Source of the DNA: Gluconobacter potus
Lineage (GTDB): Bacteria; Pseudomonadota; Alphaproteobacteria; Acetobacterales; Acetobacteraceae
Direction: 5' to 3'
NCBI RefSeq assembly: GCF_015244705.1
Contig: NZ_JABCQF010000004.1
Span: 62,001 to 126,000 of the forward strand
DNA: 64,000 bases
Of the stretch, positions 15,343 through 22,225 are shown piece by piece. Each line of letters begins with the position of its first letter. Within the stretch, counting starts at the first letter, position 1. The notes beneath the pieces are model-generated. The model had not been told where the DNA came from, made no database searches, and saw only the letters and a program-made list of their open reading frames with translations. Both the position numbers and the translations under genes were made by a program.

Positions 15343-15963
15343 ATGTCTTCCCTTCCATCAAGGATTTACGCTGTCGTCGACCATCCGCGCTGGGTGGAAC
15401 GGCTTGGTGGGGCGGGTCTGCGTTTCATCGAACTCTATCTGCGTGATCTGCCGGAAGAAGAGATCAGGGCACAGGCCCTGCTGGCACAGGAACTGGCCGC
15501 ACGTTTCAATGTTTCTCTGGCGCTGAACCGCTACTGGCAGACGGCCATCGAGCTGGGCTATGAATGGCTGCATCTTGGCCCCGAAGATCTGGAGACGGCG
15601 GATCTCGACGCGATCCGGACCGCTGGCATCAGGTTTGGCATCTCGACCCATACGCATGAAGAGCTGCAGACGGCACTGGCCTGCAAGCCGGATTATGTGT
15701 CCTTCGGCCCGGTCTGGTCCACGCAGCTCCGGGGCGTGCCGCTGACGGGGCGGGGCCTGGAGAAACTGGCAGAATGGCGCGGGTTGTGCGGCAATGTTCC
15801 GCTGGTTGCCATTGGTGGAATCACCGTGCCCCGGCTGGCGGAATGCCTTGAGGCAGGCGCCGATACGGTTGCCGTCATGAGCGACCTCATCGGCCATGAG
15901 GACCCGGAAGGGCAGGTCCGACGCTGGCTCGACGCTGTCTCCCGGGAGACAGCACCAACTTGA
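15343..15963 (+). CDS. ThiE-like protein (thiamine phosphate synthase family) with altered active-site positions
   Basis: This 206-aa protein spans the whole ThiE TIM barrel and aligns by eye with E. coli ThiE from RIYAVVDHPRWVERL to VAIGGITVPRLAECLEAG. Family members join HMP-pyrophosphate to the thiazole phosphate. Several substrate positions differ. The ThiE block QLRxKD is ELYLRD here, the Mg-binding IND is LNR, HLGQED is HLGPED, and PTQTK is STQLR. It may be a divergent synthase, a paralogue with another substrate, or non-catalytic. I chose ATG 15343 because GGAG lies about 10 nt upstream; a GTG at 15316 would add nine residues. The antiporter gene follows after 49 bp. Confidence 0.72.
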   Translation: MSSLPSRIYAVVDHPRWVERLGGAGLRFIELYLRDLPEEEIRAQALLAQELAARFNVSLALNRYWQTAIELGYEWLHLGPEDLETADLDAIRTAGIRFGISTHTHEELQTALACKPDYVSFGPVWSTQLRGVPLTGRGLEKLAEWRGLCGNVPLVAIGGITVPRLAECLEAGADTVAVMSDLIGHEDPEGQVRRWLDAVSRETAPT

Positions 15964-16012: not shown

Positions 16013-18589
16013 ATGATGGTGACAGGACTGGCAGCCGTACTCCTAGCGCTTGCGTTCCTGCTCACGCTTGTCAGCATCATCCAGCCCCTCGCGAAACGTC
16101 TCGAGATTTCCGAAGCTGTCCTGCTGGCATTGACCGGGATCGGGCTGGGCCTTGTCGCGTCCCTTATCGTGCGCTCGTCTGCGACCGATCTGCTGGATGG
16201 GGCAGCCGAGGCGCTGATCTATTTCCCGGTCAACAGTGAAGCCTTCCTGCTGATCTTCCTGCCCATCCTGGTCTTTCAGGGGGCCATGGCCATCGACGTG
16301 CGCCGTCTGGCCCATGAAACGGCAACGGTGCTGCTGCTGGCGGTTGTCGCTGTCATCGTTTCGACCGCGACCATTGGCTTCGCGCTTTATCCGTTTGCCC
16401 AGCAGAGCCTCGTCGTCTGCCTGCTTCTGGGATCGATCGTCGCGACGACCGATCCGTCCGCCGTGGCCGGGATCTTCCGTGAAATCGGTGCAGCTTCGCG
16501 TCTGACACGTCTTGTCGAAGGCGAGGCCCTGCTGAACGACGCTGCGGCCATTTCGATCTTCTCGATCCTTCTGGCAGCCGTCACCTCGCATCACCAGATC
16601 CATCTGGCCGACGCGCTGATGGACTTCCTGACGGCCTTCATCGGGGCAATCGTGGTTGGCGTCTGTCTGGCACGCCTCACATTGCTACTGATTGCCGGAC
16701 TTGGGGGATCGGCGGCTTCGGAAGTCACGCTGACTCTGGCGCTGCCTTATGCCGTTTATATCCTGTGCGATGAGATGCTCGGCTTTTCCGGCGTGGTCGC
16801 AACGGCTGCTGCGGGGCTGACGGTCTCCGCTTACGGGCCGTCGACCTTCCGGCCGCAGGTCTGGCGCTTCCTGAACGAGATGTGGGAGCAGCTCGTTTTC
16901 TGGGCCGGCTCTCTCGTGTTCCTTCTGGCCGCCATGCTGGTGCCCCGACTGCTGATCGGCATGACGAAATGGGATTTCGTACTGATCCTGATCGCCAGCG
17001 TCGCGGGCCTGATCGCACGTTCGGCCGTGATTTTCGGAATGCTGCCGCTTCTGGCCATCACGAAGCTCTCGCCGCCCGTTCCCAATCCCTTCAAGGCCAC
17101 CATGGCCTGGGGTGGCATCCGTGGCGCCATCACGCTGGCGCTGGCGCTGGCCGTGACCGAGAACCAGAGCGTTTCGAGCCCGGTCGCCCATTTCGTCGGC
17201 ATCATCGCCACCGGTTTCGTGCTCATCACGCTTCTGGTCAACGGGACCACGCTGCGGGCGCTCGTCCTGTTCTTCAAGCTGGACCAGTTGTCGCCCATCG
17301 ATCAGGCCATCCGCCAGCAGATCGTGGGCATCGGCCTTGGTGAAGTCGCGGAGCGGACGCGGGAGCTTTCCGAAGAACTGGGCTTCAGCGAGCAGACCCG
17401 TGCCGGTGTCATCAGCCGCCTGGAACGTCGCGCGGAACAGGAGAGGGCGGCCAACAATTTTGAATCCGCCCTGAGCGACCGCAACCGCGTCAATATCGCC
17501 CTGATCACCATCGCCAACCAGGAGCGCTCCCTGCTGCTGGATCTGTTCCGCATTCAGGGGCTGTCCCGACGCGTGATGGAGACATTGCTGCGCACGGCTG
17601 AGTCCATGGCCGATGGCGCACGTCTCGAAGGGCGGTATGGTTATGTCCGGGCTCTCAAGCGCCGCCTTCAGCCTTCATTGCGCTTCCGGATCGCGCAGGA
17701 GCTCCACAGCCGCCTTCATATCGACGAGCCGCTGACGAACTGCATGATGGAGCGCTTCGAGATGCTCATCATCGCGCATCTCGTCTCGCTGTCGCTTCAG
17801 CGCTTCATCCGCCAGCGCATGGAACCGACGCTTGGCCCGCGCATTACGGAAATCGTGTCCGAAGTTCTTGGTCGTCAGCGCAAGCTGCTGGATGACGCGC
17901 TGGAGACGCTGCGACTGCATTACTCCGGTTATTCCGAAGCGCTGGAAAGCCGCATCCTGCGTCAGATCGCCCTGCGTCTCGAAGACGAGGAATATGATGC
18001 GCTGGAAGCTGACAACCTGATTTCCGAGGAACTGCACCGCGAACTGCATCGTGAGATCGAACGTCAGCGCGCCCGGCTGGATGCGCCGCTGCGCTTCAAT
18101 CTCAAGAGCGGTATCGAACAGCGTCTCCGGGCCTTTCCGGCCTTCAACGGCGTTCCCGACAGCGTGCTTCAGAAGCTTTCAGGCAAGGTCTCCATGCATT
18201 TCGTCTCACCCGGCGAAGTTCTGTTCAAGCGCGGGCAGCGCGTACGCGTCGTCTATGCGCAGGTGGCGGGACTGGCGGAGGTCAATCTGGCGGAGCGGGA
18301 TCTGCTGTTTGGAAGCGGGGACCTGATCGGCGCGGCCTCCGTCATCCGCAACGAGACCATGCCCGGGACCGTCCGCTCCCTGCAGTTCAGCCATCTGCTC
18401 GCCATTCCCCGTCCGGTGTTCGAGAAGCTGCTGAAGGAGTATCCCATCGTTCAGCGCCTCATTATCCAGCGTAGCCAGAAAAGGGCGGACGGGCTGCTGA
18501 CGCCCGTCACGGTTCGTACGCTGGATGGTGATGCTGTCTCAACCGCATCGGCCCCGGAAATGCGCCGTCTGGTTGCGCCGCCGTCTTAA
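16013..18589 (+). CDS. CPA1-type cation/proton antiporter with C-terminal cyclic-nucleotide-binding-like domain
   Basis: This 858-aa inner-membrane protein has about twelve hydrophobic segments in its first 430 residues. They include the CPA1 motifs ATTDPSAVAGIF and EGEALLNDAAAISIF, so cation/H+ exchange is the likely activity. A long charged, mostly helical cytoplasmic region (about 440-700) leads to a CNBD-like beta-roll (SPGEVLFKRGQRVRVVYAQV). The usual phosphate-binding-cassette Glu and Arg are not evident in DLIGAASVIRNETMPGTVR, so cNMP binding is doubtful. AAGGAG lies 11 nt before the ATG. The stop shares bases with the stop of the convergent POT gene. Confidence 0.85.
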   Translation: MMVTGLAAVLLALAFLLTLVSIIQPLAKRLEISEAVLLALTGIGLGLVASLIVRSSATDLLDGAAEALIYFPVNSEAFLLIFLPILVFQGAMAIDVRRLAHETATVLLLAVVAVIVSTATIGFALYPFAQQSLVVCLLLGSIVATTDPSAVAGIFREIGAASRLTRLVEGEALLNDAAAISIFSILLAAVTSHHQIHLADALMDFLTAFIGAIVVGVCLARLTLLLIAGLGGSAASEVTLTLALPYAVYILCDEMLGFSGVVATAAAGLTVSAYGPSTFRPQVWRFLNEMWEQLVFWAGSLVFLLAAMLVPRLLIGMTKWDFVLILIASVAGLIARSAVIFGMLPLLAITKLSPPVPNPFKATMAWGGIRGAITLALALAVTENQSVSSPVAHFVGIIATGFVLITLLVNGTTLRALVLFFKLDQLSPIDQAIRQQIVGIGLGEVAERTRELSEELGFSEQTRAGVISRLERRAEQERAANNFESALSDRNRVNIALITIANQERSLLLDLFRIQGLSRRVMETLLRTAESMADGARLEGRYGYVRALKRRLQPSLRFRIAQELHSRLHIDEPLTNCMMERFEMLIIAHLVSLSLQRFIRQRMEPTLGPRITEIVSEVLGRQRKLLDDALETLRLHYSGYSEALESRILRQIALRLEDEEYDALEADNLISEELHRELHREIERQRARLDAPLRFNLKSGIEQRLRAFPAFNGVPDSVLQKLSGKVSMHFVSPGEVLFKRGQRVRVVYAQVAGLAEVNLAERDLLFGSGDLIGAASVIRNETMPGTVRSLQFSHLLAIPRPVFEKLLKEYPIVQRLIIQRSQKRADGLLTPVTVRTLDGDAVSTASAPEMRRLVAPPS

Positions 18590-20013
18590 GGCACGGGCGG
18601 CGCGGTCTCTTTGCCAGGCACCAGAAGGTCACGGAAGCGCACGGCACAGAAGCCAAGGATTGCCGCTGCCACAAGCGCGGCTCCTGAATGCAGAAGCCAG
18701 AACGAGACGTCGGAAATCCGTCCCAGCAGCGTCGCCAGCTTTCCGATCAGCAGGTTGGACAGGAACAGATGGAGCGAGAAGCAGGCGACGAGAATGGTGT
18801 TCAGGCTCACGGGGGCGGCGCGTGAGAAAAGCGCCATTCCAATCGCATAATTCATCGAAAACCCGATGTCATTGATGATGTGAAAGGCCAGCCCCCAGAA
18901 CAGACTGACCTCATGGGGGCCCGGACTGATCCATGATCCCAAAGCCAGTATCAGCGGCCCGAAAGCAGCAATCAACGTCCCCAGCGCGACCTTGGAAATC
19001 TCCGACAGATCGGGCCTGCGACGCGCATAGGCCTTCCAGAACCACAGGACGAGCACGGCGCACAGGGTGCTGATAAATCCATCCAGGGAAATGAGATCGC
19101 TCACCGGCATCTCGTATCCCAGAAGATGAAGCTGGAAATGCTCGCGCCCCCAGAGCAGATAGCCGTCGAAGATTTCCGAGTTTGGGACAGCGCCCACCGC
19201 CAGAACAGGCACAAGCGCCAGAAGCAGCAGGGTCGTCTTCTTTTCCTGCGACGTCAGGGCAGGGCGTGCGTGCTTTGTGGTTGCGGCCGGGGCCTCAGAC
19301 CGACGCACCGCAACAGCAGGAGCGGGGAGCCAGCGCCGCCCCACGAGATAGACCACAAGCCCGATCAGCATACCCAGGCCCGCTGCCAGAAAGCCCCAGT
19401 GCCATTCAATCTGCGCAAGGCTCGCGCACAGGACCGGGGACACGATGACCGCAATCTGAAGCCCCATCATGTAGATCTGATAGGCGTCCGAACGCCGTCG
19501 GTCACCTAGGGCATACAGCGCGCCGACCTGTGCCCGCAGACCGCCAGCCATACCAAGCCCAGCCAGCAGAAAGCCCAGCGCCAGTACAAAGCTCCAGTCA
19601 AATGACATCAGGAAATGACCCACAGTCATCAGGATGGCACCCAGCAGGATGGTCCGCGTCTGGCCGAGGACGCGGTCCGCCAGAAAACCGCCGAGGAGAG
19701 GGGTGGCGTAAATCAGTGCCAGGAACAGACCTGTAATGGCTGCGCCCATGGCGCGGGCTCCCACAGGCGCATAAAGGGCGGAAGCAAAAGCCTCCAGCGG
19801 CCCGAGACCCATAACGGCTCCTGAATGAGCCGGCTGCAGCAGATGGTCCGTCAGATACAGGGCCAGAATGGCCTGCATCCCGTAGAGCGAGAACCCGACC
19901 CAGCCTTCGGTCAGCGTCAGCACCCACAGCCCGATGGGATGCCCCCAAAGTTCCCGCTGTTTTCCGGCGGAAGACGGTTCGACAACAGGGGAAGCAGGAA
20001 GGATTTCGGTCAT
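18586..20013 (-). CDS. POT-family proton-dependent oligopeptide transporter
   Basis: This 475-aa MFS-fold protein has about 12-14 hydrophobic helices. Its N-terminal part (LTEGWVGFSLYGMQAILALYL) matches the POT/PTR signature region around the E-x-x-E/R helix-1 motif, here partly changed to TEGWVGFSLY. POT proteins import di- and tripeptides with protons across the inner membrane. The gene reads leftward and its stop TAA overlaps the antiporter stop in the shared TTAA at 18586-18589. Its promoter must lie within the palindrome-rich region 20014-20590, which it shares with the divergent porin. Peptide specificity is an inference from family. Confidence 0.82.
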   Translation of the reverse strand: MTEILPASPVVEPSSAGKQRELWGHPIGLWVLTLTEGWVGFSLYGMQAILALYLTDHLLQPAHSGAVMGLGPLEAFASALYAPVGARAMGAAITGLFLALIYATPLLGGFLADRVLGQTRTILLGAILMTVGHFLMSFDWSFVLALGFLLAGLGMAGGLRAQVGALYALGDRRRSDAYQIYMMGLQIAVIVSPVLCASLAQIEWHWGFLAAGLGMLIGLVVYLVGRRWLPAPAVAVRRSEAPAATTKHARPALTSQEKKTTLLLLALVPVLAVGAVPNSEIFDGYLLWGREHFQLHLLGYEMPVSDLISLDGFISTLCAVLVLWFWKAYARRRPDLSEISKVALGTLIAAFGPLILALGSWISPGPHEVSLFWGLAFHIINDIGFSMNYAIGMALFSRAAPVSLNTILVACFSLHLFLSNLLIGKLATLLGRISDVSFWLLHSGAALVAAAILGFCAVRFRDLLVPGKETAPPVP

Positions 20014-20090: not shown

Positions 20091-20103
20091 TGGCAAAATG
20101 CCA
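20091..20103. promoter_or_regulatory. Palindrome copy 1, TGGCAAAATGCCA
   Basis: Perfect TGGCA-AAA-TGCCA inverted repeat, 78 bp upstream of the POT start codon. Probable transcription-factor half-site pair. Confidence 0.65.
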
Positions 20104-20116
20104 TAGAGTGCATTTA

Positions 20117-20129
20117 TGGCGTTTTGCCA
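20117..20129. promoter_or_regulatory. Palindrome copy 2, TGGCGTTTTGCCA
   Basis: Same palindrome read from the other strand, with one change from TGGCATTTTGCCA. It begins exactly 26 bp after copy 1. Confidence 0.65.
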
Positions 20130-20164
20130 TAGCGCCACAACAAGGCGAGCCAGCATCCAACCTA

Positions 20165-20177
20165 TGGCAAAATGGCT
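20165..20177. promoter_or_regulatory. Palindrome copy 3, TGGCAAAATGGCT
   Basis: Left arm intact, right arm degenerate. It has the same orientation as copy 1 and begins 48 bp after copy 2. Confidence 0.5.
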
Positions 20178-20190
20178 CAATTCCTAAAAT

Positions 20191-20203
20191 TGGCATTTTG
20201 TCA
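20191..20203. promoter_or_regulatory. Palindrome copy 4, TGGCATTTTGTCA
   Basis: One mismatch in the right arm. It begins exactly 26 bp after copy 3. Copies 3 and 4 together form a larger inverted repeat that starts CCTATG and ends CATAGG. Confidence 0.55.
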
Positions 20204-20290
20204 TAGGTGTCAGGTTTACCGTTACGGGAAAGCCTTGCATCCATCAGAAAGCAGCTTCTGGAAGCCGGAAAATCCGGGGAAAAATGGTAA

Positions 20291-20303
20291 TGGCATTTTG
20301 CCA
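20291..20303. promoter_or_regulatory. Palindrome copy 5, TGGCATTTTGCCA
   Basis: Perfect palindrome, 288 bp before the porin start. It begins 26 bp after a different 5-3-5 palindrome (CCGGA-AAA-TCCGG at 20265). Confidence 0.6.
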
Positions 20304-20590: not shown

Positions 20591-22225
20591 ATGCCATCTA
20601 TGTCCCTGTGCCGCCTGAGTCTCCTGGGAAGCACATTCTGCATTGCTGCACTCTCCGTCCTTCCAAATGTCGCACGGGCAGATGATTATACGGAGCTGCT
20701 CGACATTCTCCGGGCCAAGGGCAGCCTGACCCGCTCGGAATACAATGTGCTGCTGGCCCATCACCAGCATCACTCGCATCCTTCCCTACAGCGCGACGAT
20801 GACAGCGCCCCTGCCGCTCCGTCCCGTCATCGCAACCGCTACATGCGCTATGGACCCCAGAATGAAGGCAGCAGCCTGGAGACTCCCCCGGATGTCACGA
20901 CCATTGCGGCCGTTTCCGCAGCGCGCCGTGCTGCCATGGAAGCGTCCGCCAGTGCGCAGGATGCCCGCAATTCGCTTCTGGAAGCGCGTCGCACCTACAA
21001 TCCGGACAGCATCGTACGCGTGAAGCCCTATGTCGCGGGCAAAGGCGTTACGATCCAGGCCGGCCAGATCGACATCAACATCTCGGGCTTCGTCAACGCT
21101 TACTACACCTATAACAGCCCCGCCGGTGGTCGCGCTGTTGCGGGTGGCGTCTCGACCGGTAGCAGCGGCTTTGATTCCTCGTCCGTTCGTAACGGCCTGC
21201 TGCCGGGCGGCCTGATCCTCAAGCTGAACACGGTTCAGGATGGGATCAAGCTTGGCGCCGTCTTCGGCATGTATCCCGGCATCAACAACAACAATCCCAG
21301 TACCTTCAACGCCAACTCCGGCGGCAGTCCGGTCGGCCTTGGAACGGCCGGCCTCGATTTCCGTCAGGTTTACATGACCGCGGGAACGGACCAGTTCGGT
21401 ACGGTCAAGCTGGGCCGCGACATTGCTCTGTTTGCGTCTGACGCCATCCTGAACGATGCCACACTCCTCAGCGTCGGCAGTACCGGCAGCAACGCCAATC
21501 CCGCCAACACGTCACTCGGCCGTATCGGCGTGGGCTATGTCTATACAGACTGGCTGCCGCAGATCACCTATATCTCGCCGAAATGGAAGGGTTTTCAGGC
21601 TTCCGTCGGCGTGATGACACCGCTGGATGAATACAACTTCGCCGGTGGCGGCCTGTCCGCGACCACGACGCAGCACAGTTCGCCCATGCTTCAGGGCAAA
21701 GTCACCTATGATGGCAATATTCTCGGCTTCACGACCCGCTTTTGGAGCAGCTTCCTCGTCCAGCATCAGCAGAACCTGACCAGCTCAACACTGGGTAGCA
21801 GCAGCCGGAAAGGCACGACGGTCGAGGCCGGCGACGTTGGTGTGAAGGTCACGCGCGGCCCGTTCGAAGGCGTGGCCTATTACTACTATGGCAGTGGCCT
21901 CGGCACGACCGGCATCTTCTTCGATGGTGTATCCGCCAACGGGCGCAAGCGTGATTCCGAAGGCTACTACGTCCAGGCAGCTTACAAGATCCTACCCAAG
22001 CTCAAGCTTGTCGGGAGCTATGGCGTCAGCAACCTCTATCAGGCGCCTGGTGAGGACAATCCGGACATGGTCCGGCGCAACCAGTCTGAAGTCGGAGCGA
22101 TTTATTACAACCTGACGGACTGGTTCACGATCGTGGGAGAATATGCCCATACGGAATCGGATTCCCACAGCAGCGCCCACGAAAGCGACCACACGATGTC
22201 CGCAGGTGCCATGATGACATTCTGA
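20591..22225 (+). CDS. Outer-membrane porin
   Basis: This 544-aa protein is preceded by GGGAG 10 nt before ATG 20591. A signal peptide (MSLCRLSLLGS... cleaved after VARA) is followed by a short domain (DDYTELLDILRAKGSLTRSEY) seen in several proteobacterial porins. Next come a His-rich stretch and an Ala/Arg-rich helix that may be coiled coil (about 105-145), then a beta-barrel starting near GQIDINISGFVNAYYTY. The C-terminal residue is Phe (SAGAMMTF), the outer-membrane insertion signal. Substrate is unknown. It diverges from the POT transporter across a shared operator array, which hints at a common uptake role. A strong hairpin follows. Confidence 0.85.
   Translation: MPSMSLCRLSLLGSTFCIAALSVLPNVARADDYTELLDILRAKGSLTRSEYNVLLAHHQHHSHPSLQRDDDSAPAAPSRHRNRYMRYGPQNEGSSLETPPDVTTIAAVSAARRAAMEASASAQDARNSLLEARRTYNPDSIVRVKPYVAGKGVTIQAGQIDINISGFVNAYYTYNSPAGGRAVAGGVSTGSSGFDSSSVRNGLLPGGLILKLNTVQDGIKLGAVFGMYPGINNNNPSTFNANSGGSPVGLGTAGLDFRQVYMTAGTDQFGTVKLGRDIALFASDAILNDATLLSVGSTGSNANPANTSLGRIGVGYVYTDWLPQITYISPKWKGFQASVGVMTPLDEYNFAGGGLSATTTQHSSPMLQGKVTYDGNILGFTTRFWSSFLVQHQQNLTSSTLGSSSRKGTTVEAGDVGVKVTRGPFEGVAYYYYGSGLGTTGIFFDGVSANGRKRDSEGYYVQAAYKILPKLKLVGSYGVSNLYQAPGEDNPDMVRRNQSEVGAIYYNLTDWFTIVGEYAHTESDSHSSAHESDHTMSAGAMMTF

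Follow-up and report, generated by a model that had tools for sequence, protein, structure and literature searches.

Five short dyads related to TGGCA-N3-TGCCA lie within positions 20091-20303 of the window, the 64,000-nucleotide stretch of Gluconobacter potus DNA analysed here, in the spacer between a POT-type transporter gene (POT) and a porin-like gene. Which protein binds these dyads, and which gene do they control? A sequence-only reading of the window had described a regulatory array with regular spacing, of a shape that would suit a LysR-type regulator, and had proposed joint control of both flanking genes. Our analysis indicates that the array is probably the operator of a phage-type autorepressor, Xre, which would have been recruited to the host transporter gene as a site of repression.

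The presence and the coordinates of all five dyads were confirmed (Table 1). TGGC-N5-GCCA describes their core better than TGGCA-N3-TGCCA. The inverted 26-bp arrangement of sites 1-2 and of sites 3-4, pointed out before, recurs in relatives, and sites 3 and 4 together form the larger inverted repeat that had been proposed (15 nt, 93% complementary). To judge the density of the sites, the 64-kb window was simulated 400 times with a first-order Markov model; four dyads with at most one mismatch fall within 213 bp of the window, whereas the simulations contained at most two. The total number of dyads in the window (five) is not unusual, as the shuffle mean was 3.39 and 23 of 100 shuffles reached five. 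The motif had not been noticed elsewhere in the window; one further one-mismatch dyad was found at 15535 within an open reading frame. The sequence-only reading had also drawn attention to a palindrome, CCGGA-AAA-TCCGG, 26 bp ahead of site 5. The palindrome is present at 20265; it was rejected as a member of the array because it is not kept in the related arrays read, and for the same reason its distance to site 5 is probably due to chance.

Table 1. Features in and around the spacer between the transporter gene and the porin-like gene, in window coordinates
Feature	Position	Strand	Sequence	Remarks
POT-type transporter gene, likely target	18586..20013	-		PTR2 E 1.1e-16; array stays alongside in 27 genomes
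Site 1	20091-20103		TGGCAAAATGCCA	perfect; begins 90 bp ahead of the POT start codon
Possible POT promoter, -10	20111..20116	-	TAAATG	tentative, weak; 18 bp from the -35, site 2 in the spacer
Site 2	20117-20129		TGGCGTTTTGCCA	one change as 5-3-5, perfect as TGGC-N5-GCCA; 26 bp from site 1, inverted
Possible POT promoter, -35	20135..20140	-	TTGTGG	tentative, weak; not uniform in other clades
Site 3	20165-20177		TGGCAAAATGGCT	two changes, degenerate
Site 4	20191-20203		TGGCATTTTGTCA	one change; 26 bp from site 3, inverted to site 3
Site 5	20291-20303		TGGCATTTTGCCA	perfect
Porin-like gene	20591..22225	+		start taken at ATG 20591; weak Porin_O_P match, under curated cut-off; array does not need the porin

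The exact 13-mer TGGCAAAATGCCA has three copies in the 3.4-Mb assembly, two in the array and one upstream of an Xre-type gene. With two mismatches allowed there was no genome-wide excess in the window's genome (56 matches versus 59 for the reversed control), and with one mismatch allowed the reversed control likewise matched in most genomes of the genus. Loose motif searches thus do not discriminate. One-mismatch sites are also seen elsewhere in the window's genome, for example at G000:C4:21811.

Comparison with other genomes showed that the array is kept at the same place. All 25 same-genus genomes searched, counting that of the window, contain the exact 13-mer, versus 1 of 16 genomes of other families. 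Of 26 genus genomes, 25 carry an array ahead of POT, as do two species from other genera, Tanticharoenia sakaeratensis (G089) and Brytella acorum (G119); in all 27 array regions read, the array is upstream of this gene. In the latter two species POT is 49% identical and the arrays hold six and five exact dyads, respectively, with different inner bases. The arrays contain three to six exact dyads each, and the number and positions of their sites change fast between relatives. Among the 25 genus arrays, 20 have their POT-proximal site at -89 to -95 relative to the start codon, G017 with a one-mismatch site being one of them; of the remaining five, four (G001, G009, G012 and G022) have estimated start codons. 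The motif is neither absent in relatives nor spread genome-wide, the two outcomes that the sequence-only reading had set against itself, and with its conserved place and an exact form that is nearly unique in the genome, a regulatory array is supported.

The same comparison bears on the target. No porin was found in the stretch read of G001 (Neokomagataea anthophila), G009 (an uncultured Neokomagataea), G012, G022 (N. thailandica) and G119, and in all of them, four of the 25 genus arrays and G119, the array is present upstream of POT. Since the array stays with POT where the porin was not found, POT is the likelier target, and the co-regulation of porin and transporter was dropped. A gene for a Na+/H+ exchanger with a C-terminal cyclic-nucleotide-binding domain, convergent to POT (window 16013-18589), is a neighbour kept in the array loci read.

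The POT protein scores 61.2 bits against the PTR2 domain (cut-off 27) and stays below the curated oligopeptide symporter model TIGR00924, with 125.2 bits versus a cut-off of 130.2. ExxER is the motif of peptide POTs; by eye, the protein reads EGWVG at this place. Its substrate may therefore not be a peptide, and the import of a peptide-like nutrient, as earlier proposed, is uncertain: the domain agrees with it and the symporter model falls short.

The third exact copy of the 13-mer in the window's genome is located 74 bp upstream of a 130-aa Xre/Cro-type gene (xre, G000:C6:110057-110449), on a different contig from the array. The Xre protein carries an HTH_3 domain (41.4 bits, cut-off 23), and ImmR of ICEBs1 and the P22 c2 repressor are the relatives by sequence for which structures exist. 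The fold model of Xre was of moderate quality (mean pLDDT 72), and the fold search with this model gave no match with E < 0.001.

In the window's genome four TGGC-N5-GCCA dyads surround xre, two upstream and two downstream. To describe this anatomy we used 36 named loci, from which one unrelated locus was dropped, leaving 35 (L213-L247). Both upstream dyads are exact in 33 of the 35 loci, and so are both downstream dyads, which lie 32 bp apart. In every locus the proximal dyad sits between the promoter-like hexamers CT[GA]GATT and TTGCTA just before the xre start codon, and phage genes are adjacent; the dyads would be putative operators of a phage-type autorepressor. Read as a promoter, this arrangement suggests a repressible xre transcript, perhaps a leaderless one because the dyad and the hexamers are so close to the start codon.

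A second promoter-like element follows on the minus strand behind xre, where TTGAC-dyad-TTAA-N7-TTAA was found in 34 of the 35 loci (L031:5625-5690 in the window's genome). The TTAA-N7-TTAA box itself occurs in all 35, and 114 kb of sequence from elsewhere in the window's genome does not contain it. The box equals the CtrA consensus quoted in PMC9437464, and the window's genome encodes a CtrA-like protein with 51% identity to the query sequence (next best proteins, 34-35%). The element points through xre to the phage operon and therefore would make RNA antisense to xre. In G253 (L125, G253:C1:2733000-2745000) xre is diverged, with about 61-62% identity, and keeps two upstream dyads; a second dyad pair lies ~1.2 kb downstream of the gene, and neither a terminase nor a portal relative turned up in the 12 kb read.

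Next to exact single copies, paired dyads link the two loci. Such pairs were present in 26 of 26 genus genomes and in none of 26 for the reversed control, and among the pairs listed every one is part of a POT array or lies beside xre; for G006, the POT array (L043) and xre were confirmed separately from the pair listing. In the window's genome (G000) there are just three dyad pairs with a gap of 8-38 bp, one in the window array and two at xre, and a regulon beyond these two loci was rejected on this basis. The pair search was not discriminating across 249 family genomes, where 94 matched, many of the matches listed were GC-rich pairs and the control matched too. Two isolated exact TGGCAAAATGCCA sites of G001 lie off both loci (C108:353230 and C292:38986), and isolated exact sites near the arrays of G001 (L040:4629) and G012 (L108:7298) are each inside a reading frame that we take to encode methionyl-tRNA synthetase.

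We also counted how often arrays and xre occur together. The gene is present in 26 of 26 genus genomes and, at E < 1e-40, in 16 of 249 family genomes. At E up to 1e-80, 46 of 397 family genomes have a POT orthologue, 18 with and 28 without xre; with 12 further genus genomes, 30 genomes possess both POT and xre. Arrays accompany POT in 27 of these 30, the exceptions being G005 and G063 without an array and G066 with only one site, which has one mismatch. No exact dyad was detected at the POT orthologues of the 28 genomes without xre, in 600 bp upstream for 14 of them and in stretches of ~850 bp for the other 14. The count omits the unrelated locus L248 and POT relatives weaker than E 1e-80 (G230 and G265 at 35-36%, and matches at 31-34%), none of which has an array. 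The array thus depends on xre, with a p-value of 1.6e-13 by Fisher's exact test, kinship ignored. Because the arrays sit in three genera, this corresponds to one to three evolutionary events, and the link is correlative.

Taken together, we propose that dimers of Xre would bind the dyad TGGC-N5-GCCA and would repress both the gene's own promoter and the second promoter behind it. At POT, Xre would fill the site cluster over the promoter, in pairs about 26 bp apart, and so keep the transporter down. Once a signal lowers the level or the activity of Xre, POT, whatever its cargo may be, and the phage operon would switch on together. Repression is the likelier sign, since dyads fill the spacer between the promoter-like hexamers at both xre elements.

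The choice of Xre as the binder comes from sequence, and the 13-mer formally fits the T-N11-A shape that had led to the LysR suggestion. Another host regulator, LysR-type for instance, might accordingly bind the dyads at POT and xre, with xre merely one of its targets. We consider this unlikely. No regulator gene was found among the four neighbours of the array that were family-searched, nor was one recognised by eye in the open reading frames at 15-26 kb of the window. Furthermore, genomes that lack a POT orthologue (G049, G078, G125, G188, G230, G253 and G265) still have dyads next to xre, and no POT array was found without xre. Phage-like autoregulation is also the simplest reading of dyads that flank a repressor-like gene on both sides. 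LysR control in particular was dropped, as no linked LysR-type gene was seen and the arrays accompany xre.

On the minus strand of the window, TTGTGG-N18-TAAATG offers a possible POT promoter built like that of xre; site 2 would occupy its spacer, and site 1 would lie close to the start. This build is not uniform across the genus. For G. oxydans, a -35 element 'ttGnnn' is given in PMC5756330. Sites in the window extend to -290 relative to the POT start codon, a distance beyond that required for simple blocking, which would suit activation of POT by Xre or an effect that depends on which sites are filled, through the 26-bp pairs and looping from the distant site 5. We rate this a little below a different regulator in probability: the dyads in the spacers of both xre promoter-like elements favour repression, and the POT-proximal pair would overlap the promoter as read.

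The inner bases of the dyads follow a pattern of their own. They differ between species, yet close pairs share inverted copies (27 POT arrays). Of 39 close pairs of exact dyads in POT arrays (<=42 bp), 18 had inner five bases that were inverted copies of each other and none had direct copies, with a shuffled mean of 5.9 and a p-value of 0.0002 (5001 samples, kinship ignored). For distant pairs the numbers were 9 of 39 inverted and 6 of 39 direct, with a shuffled mean of 6.9. Pairs made of the two consensus forms were opposite in 11 of 11 close versus 9 of 15 distant cases. When both members of a close pair were off the consensus forms, 7 of 13 were still exact inverted copies and six did not match. 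Simple dimer binding would not lead one to expect such inverted matching. Possible sources are an RNA stem, mutation templated by hairpins, and two dimers that bind as mirror images.

These counts, both for all close pairs and for the off-consensus ones, would agree with an array that works as RNA or DNA hairpins, the close pairs being 13-bp inverted repeats in the POT leader. Such a role is nevertheless improbable, as each dyad is itself a palindrome, the pairs at xre are not inverted copies, six of the off-consensus pairs mismatch, and hairpin-templated mutation or mirrored dimers could yield the same pattern. Least probable of all is that the array serves as a decoy, drawing Xre off the phage cluster by titration without control of POT. 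This would suit the three to six exact dyads per array, compared with four at xre in G000, and their fast turnover, but not the proximal site held at its position in most genus arrays, as promoter control predicts.

Under repression by Xre, POT would share its regulator with a set of phage genes. In all 35 named acetic acid bacterial loci, xre sits beside a divergent operon with orfB, orfC, the small and large terminase and the portal gene in the same order; orfA was not detected in five of the 35, and dnaB comes next in 19 of 20 Gluconobacter loci. The cluster spans ~20 kb in the window's genome, from C6:90311 to about 110000 (L122, L031), and encodes the small and large terminase, portal, scaffold, major head protein, tail sheath, baseplate proteins and several unknowns. 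In comparisons with 10 loci, dN/dS for TerL, portal, xre and orfB was 0.03-0.33 where computable, with three comparisons saturated, one without amino-acid change and synonymous sites often near saturation. The cluster thus displays the vertical inheritance and purifying selection by which gene transfer agents are judged. Genes for replication, integration or the cluster's own spread were not seen among the 24 minus-strand frames listed in the window's genome (23 scanned with PHROGs and/or Pfam), many of them unknown; the borders of the cluster were set by eye. Against phage records, Xre gave weak partial matches in 22, none covering 80%, and TerL gave 559 matches, the best among those listed with 48.8% identity.

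Judged from its genes, the cluster appears domesticated and resembles a gene transfer agent. It is a candidate for an undescribed one, as we did not find it described as a gene transfer agent in the literature searched. With regard to the RcGTA/CcGTA lineage, RcGTA is non-contractile, unlike the cluster here, which encodes a tail sheath. Contractile-tailed particles have been observed after mitomycin C treatment in three Gluconobacter strains and one Acidomonas (PMC8566455), with no link to this cluster. More speculatively, and less likely than not in our judgement, acetic acid bacteria of the Gluconobacter-Neokomagataea-Acidomonas-Tanticharoenia-Brytella-Asaia group may possess an undescribed, vertically inherited, contractile-tailed gene transfer agent whose switch consists of the Xre autorepressor and CtrA, with a promoter antisense to xre that is directed through this gene at the structural genes. 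Gluconobacter would then have connected an uptake transporter to this switch by means of an operator array grown for the purpose, and a single decision would govern particle production and uptake.

In place of an orphan palindrome array, the analysis offers a two-locus regulon that can be tested, made up of one small regulator, one dyad, a resident phage-particle cluster and one transporter of the host. This would, if true, be a case of a domesticated viral switch taking over a host nutrient gene. It also draws attention to the phage-particle genes of bacteria that are in industrial use, and the fast, paired turnover of facing sites provides a natural series for the evolution of operator arrays.

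No phage-type repressor whose operator array lies at a transporter was found in the open-access literature searched, and known systems share parts of this arrangement. The P22 c2 and 434 repressors combine autorepression with dyad operators in promoter spacers and paired sites. The HTH fold, the likely autorepression, the spacer dyads and the site pairs at xre are alike; here, in contrast, the cluster is vertically inherited with no integration gene seen, and the operator would have expanded to an array next to a host gene. Lambda CI, the repressor of an active prophage, controls the host metabolic gene pckA through a single adopted site. It resembles the proposed system in being a phage repressor that controls a host gene; the array described here is kept across a genus. 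XRE proteins of Caulobacter and phage phiCbK, shared by host and phage, repress a gene transfer agent and have further targets among the genes of the host (PMC10688885). Their host targets are a broad set, in contrast to the two loci defined by the motif here, and their motif has one strong and one weak half-site. The closest functional parallel is RogA, the repressor of the gene transfer agent of Caulobacter crescentus (PMC9632790), which binds only two promoters, with paired GGAA-N4-TTCC at both. In either case a small DNA-binding repressor would silence a domesticated phage-particle cluster, with two targets and paired inverted repeats, a likeness of function. The dyads differ, and RogA works via gafYZ, whereas xre adjoins the structural operon. 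The second target of RogA is unchanged on induction and, in the text available, is not described as a transporter, while the putative second target of Xre is a transporter gene with three to six exact sites.
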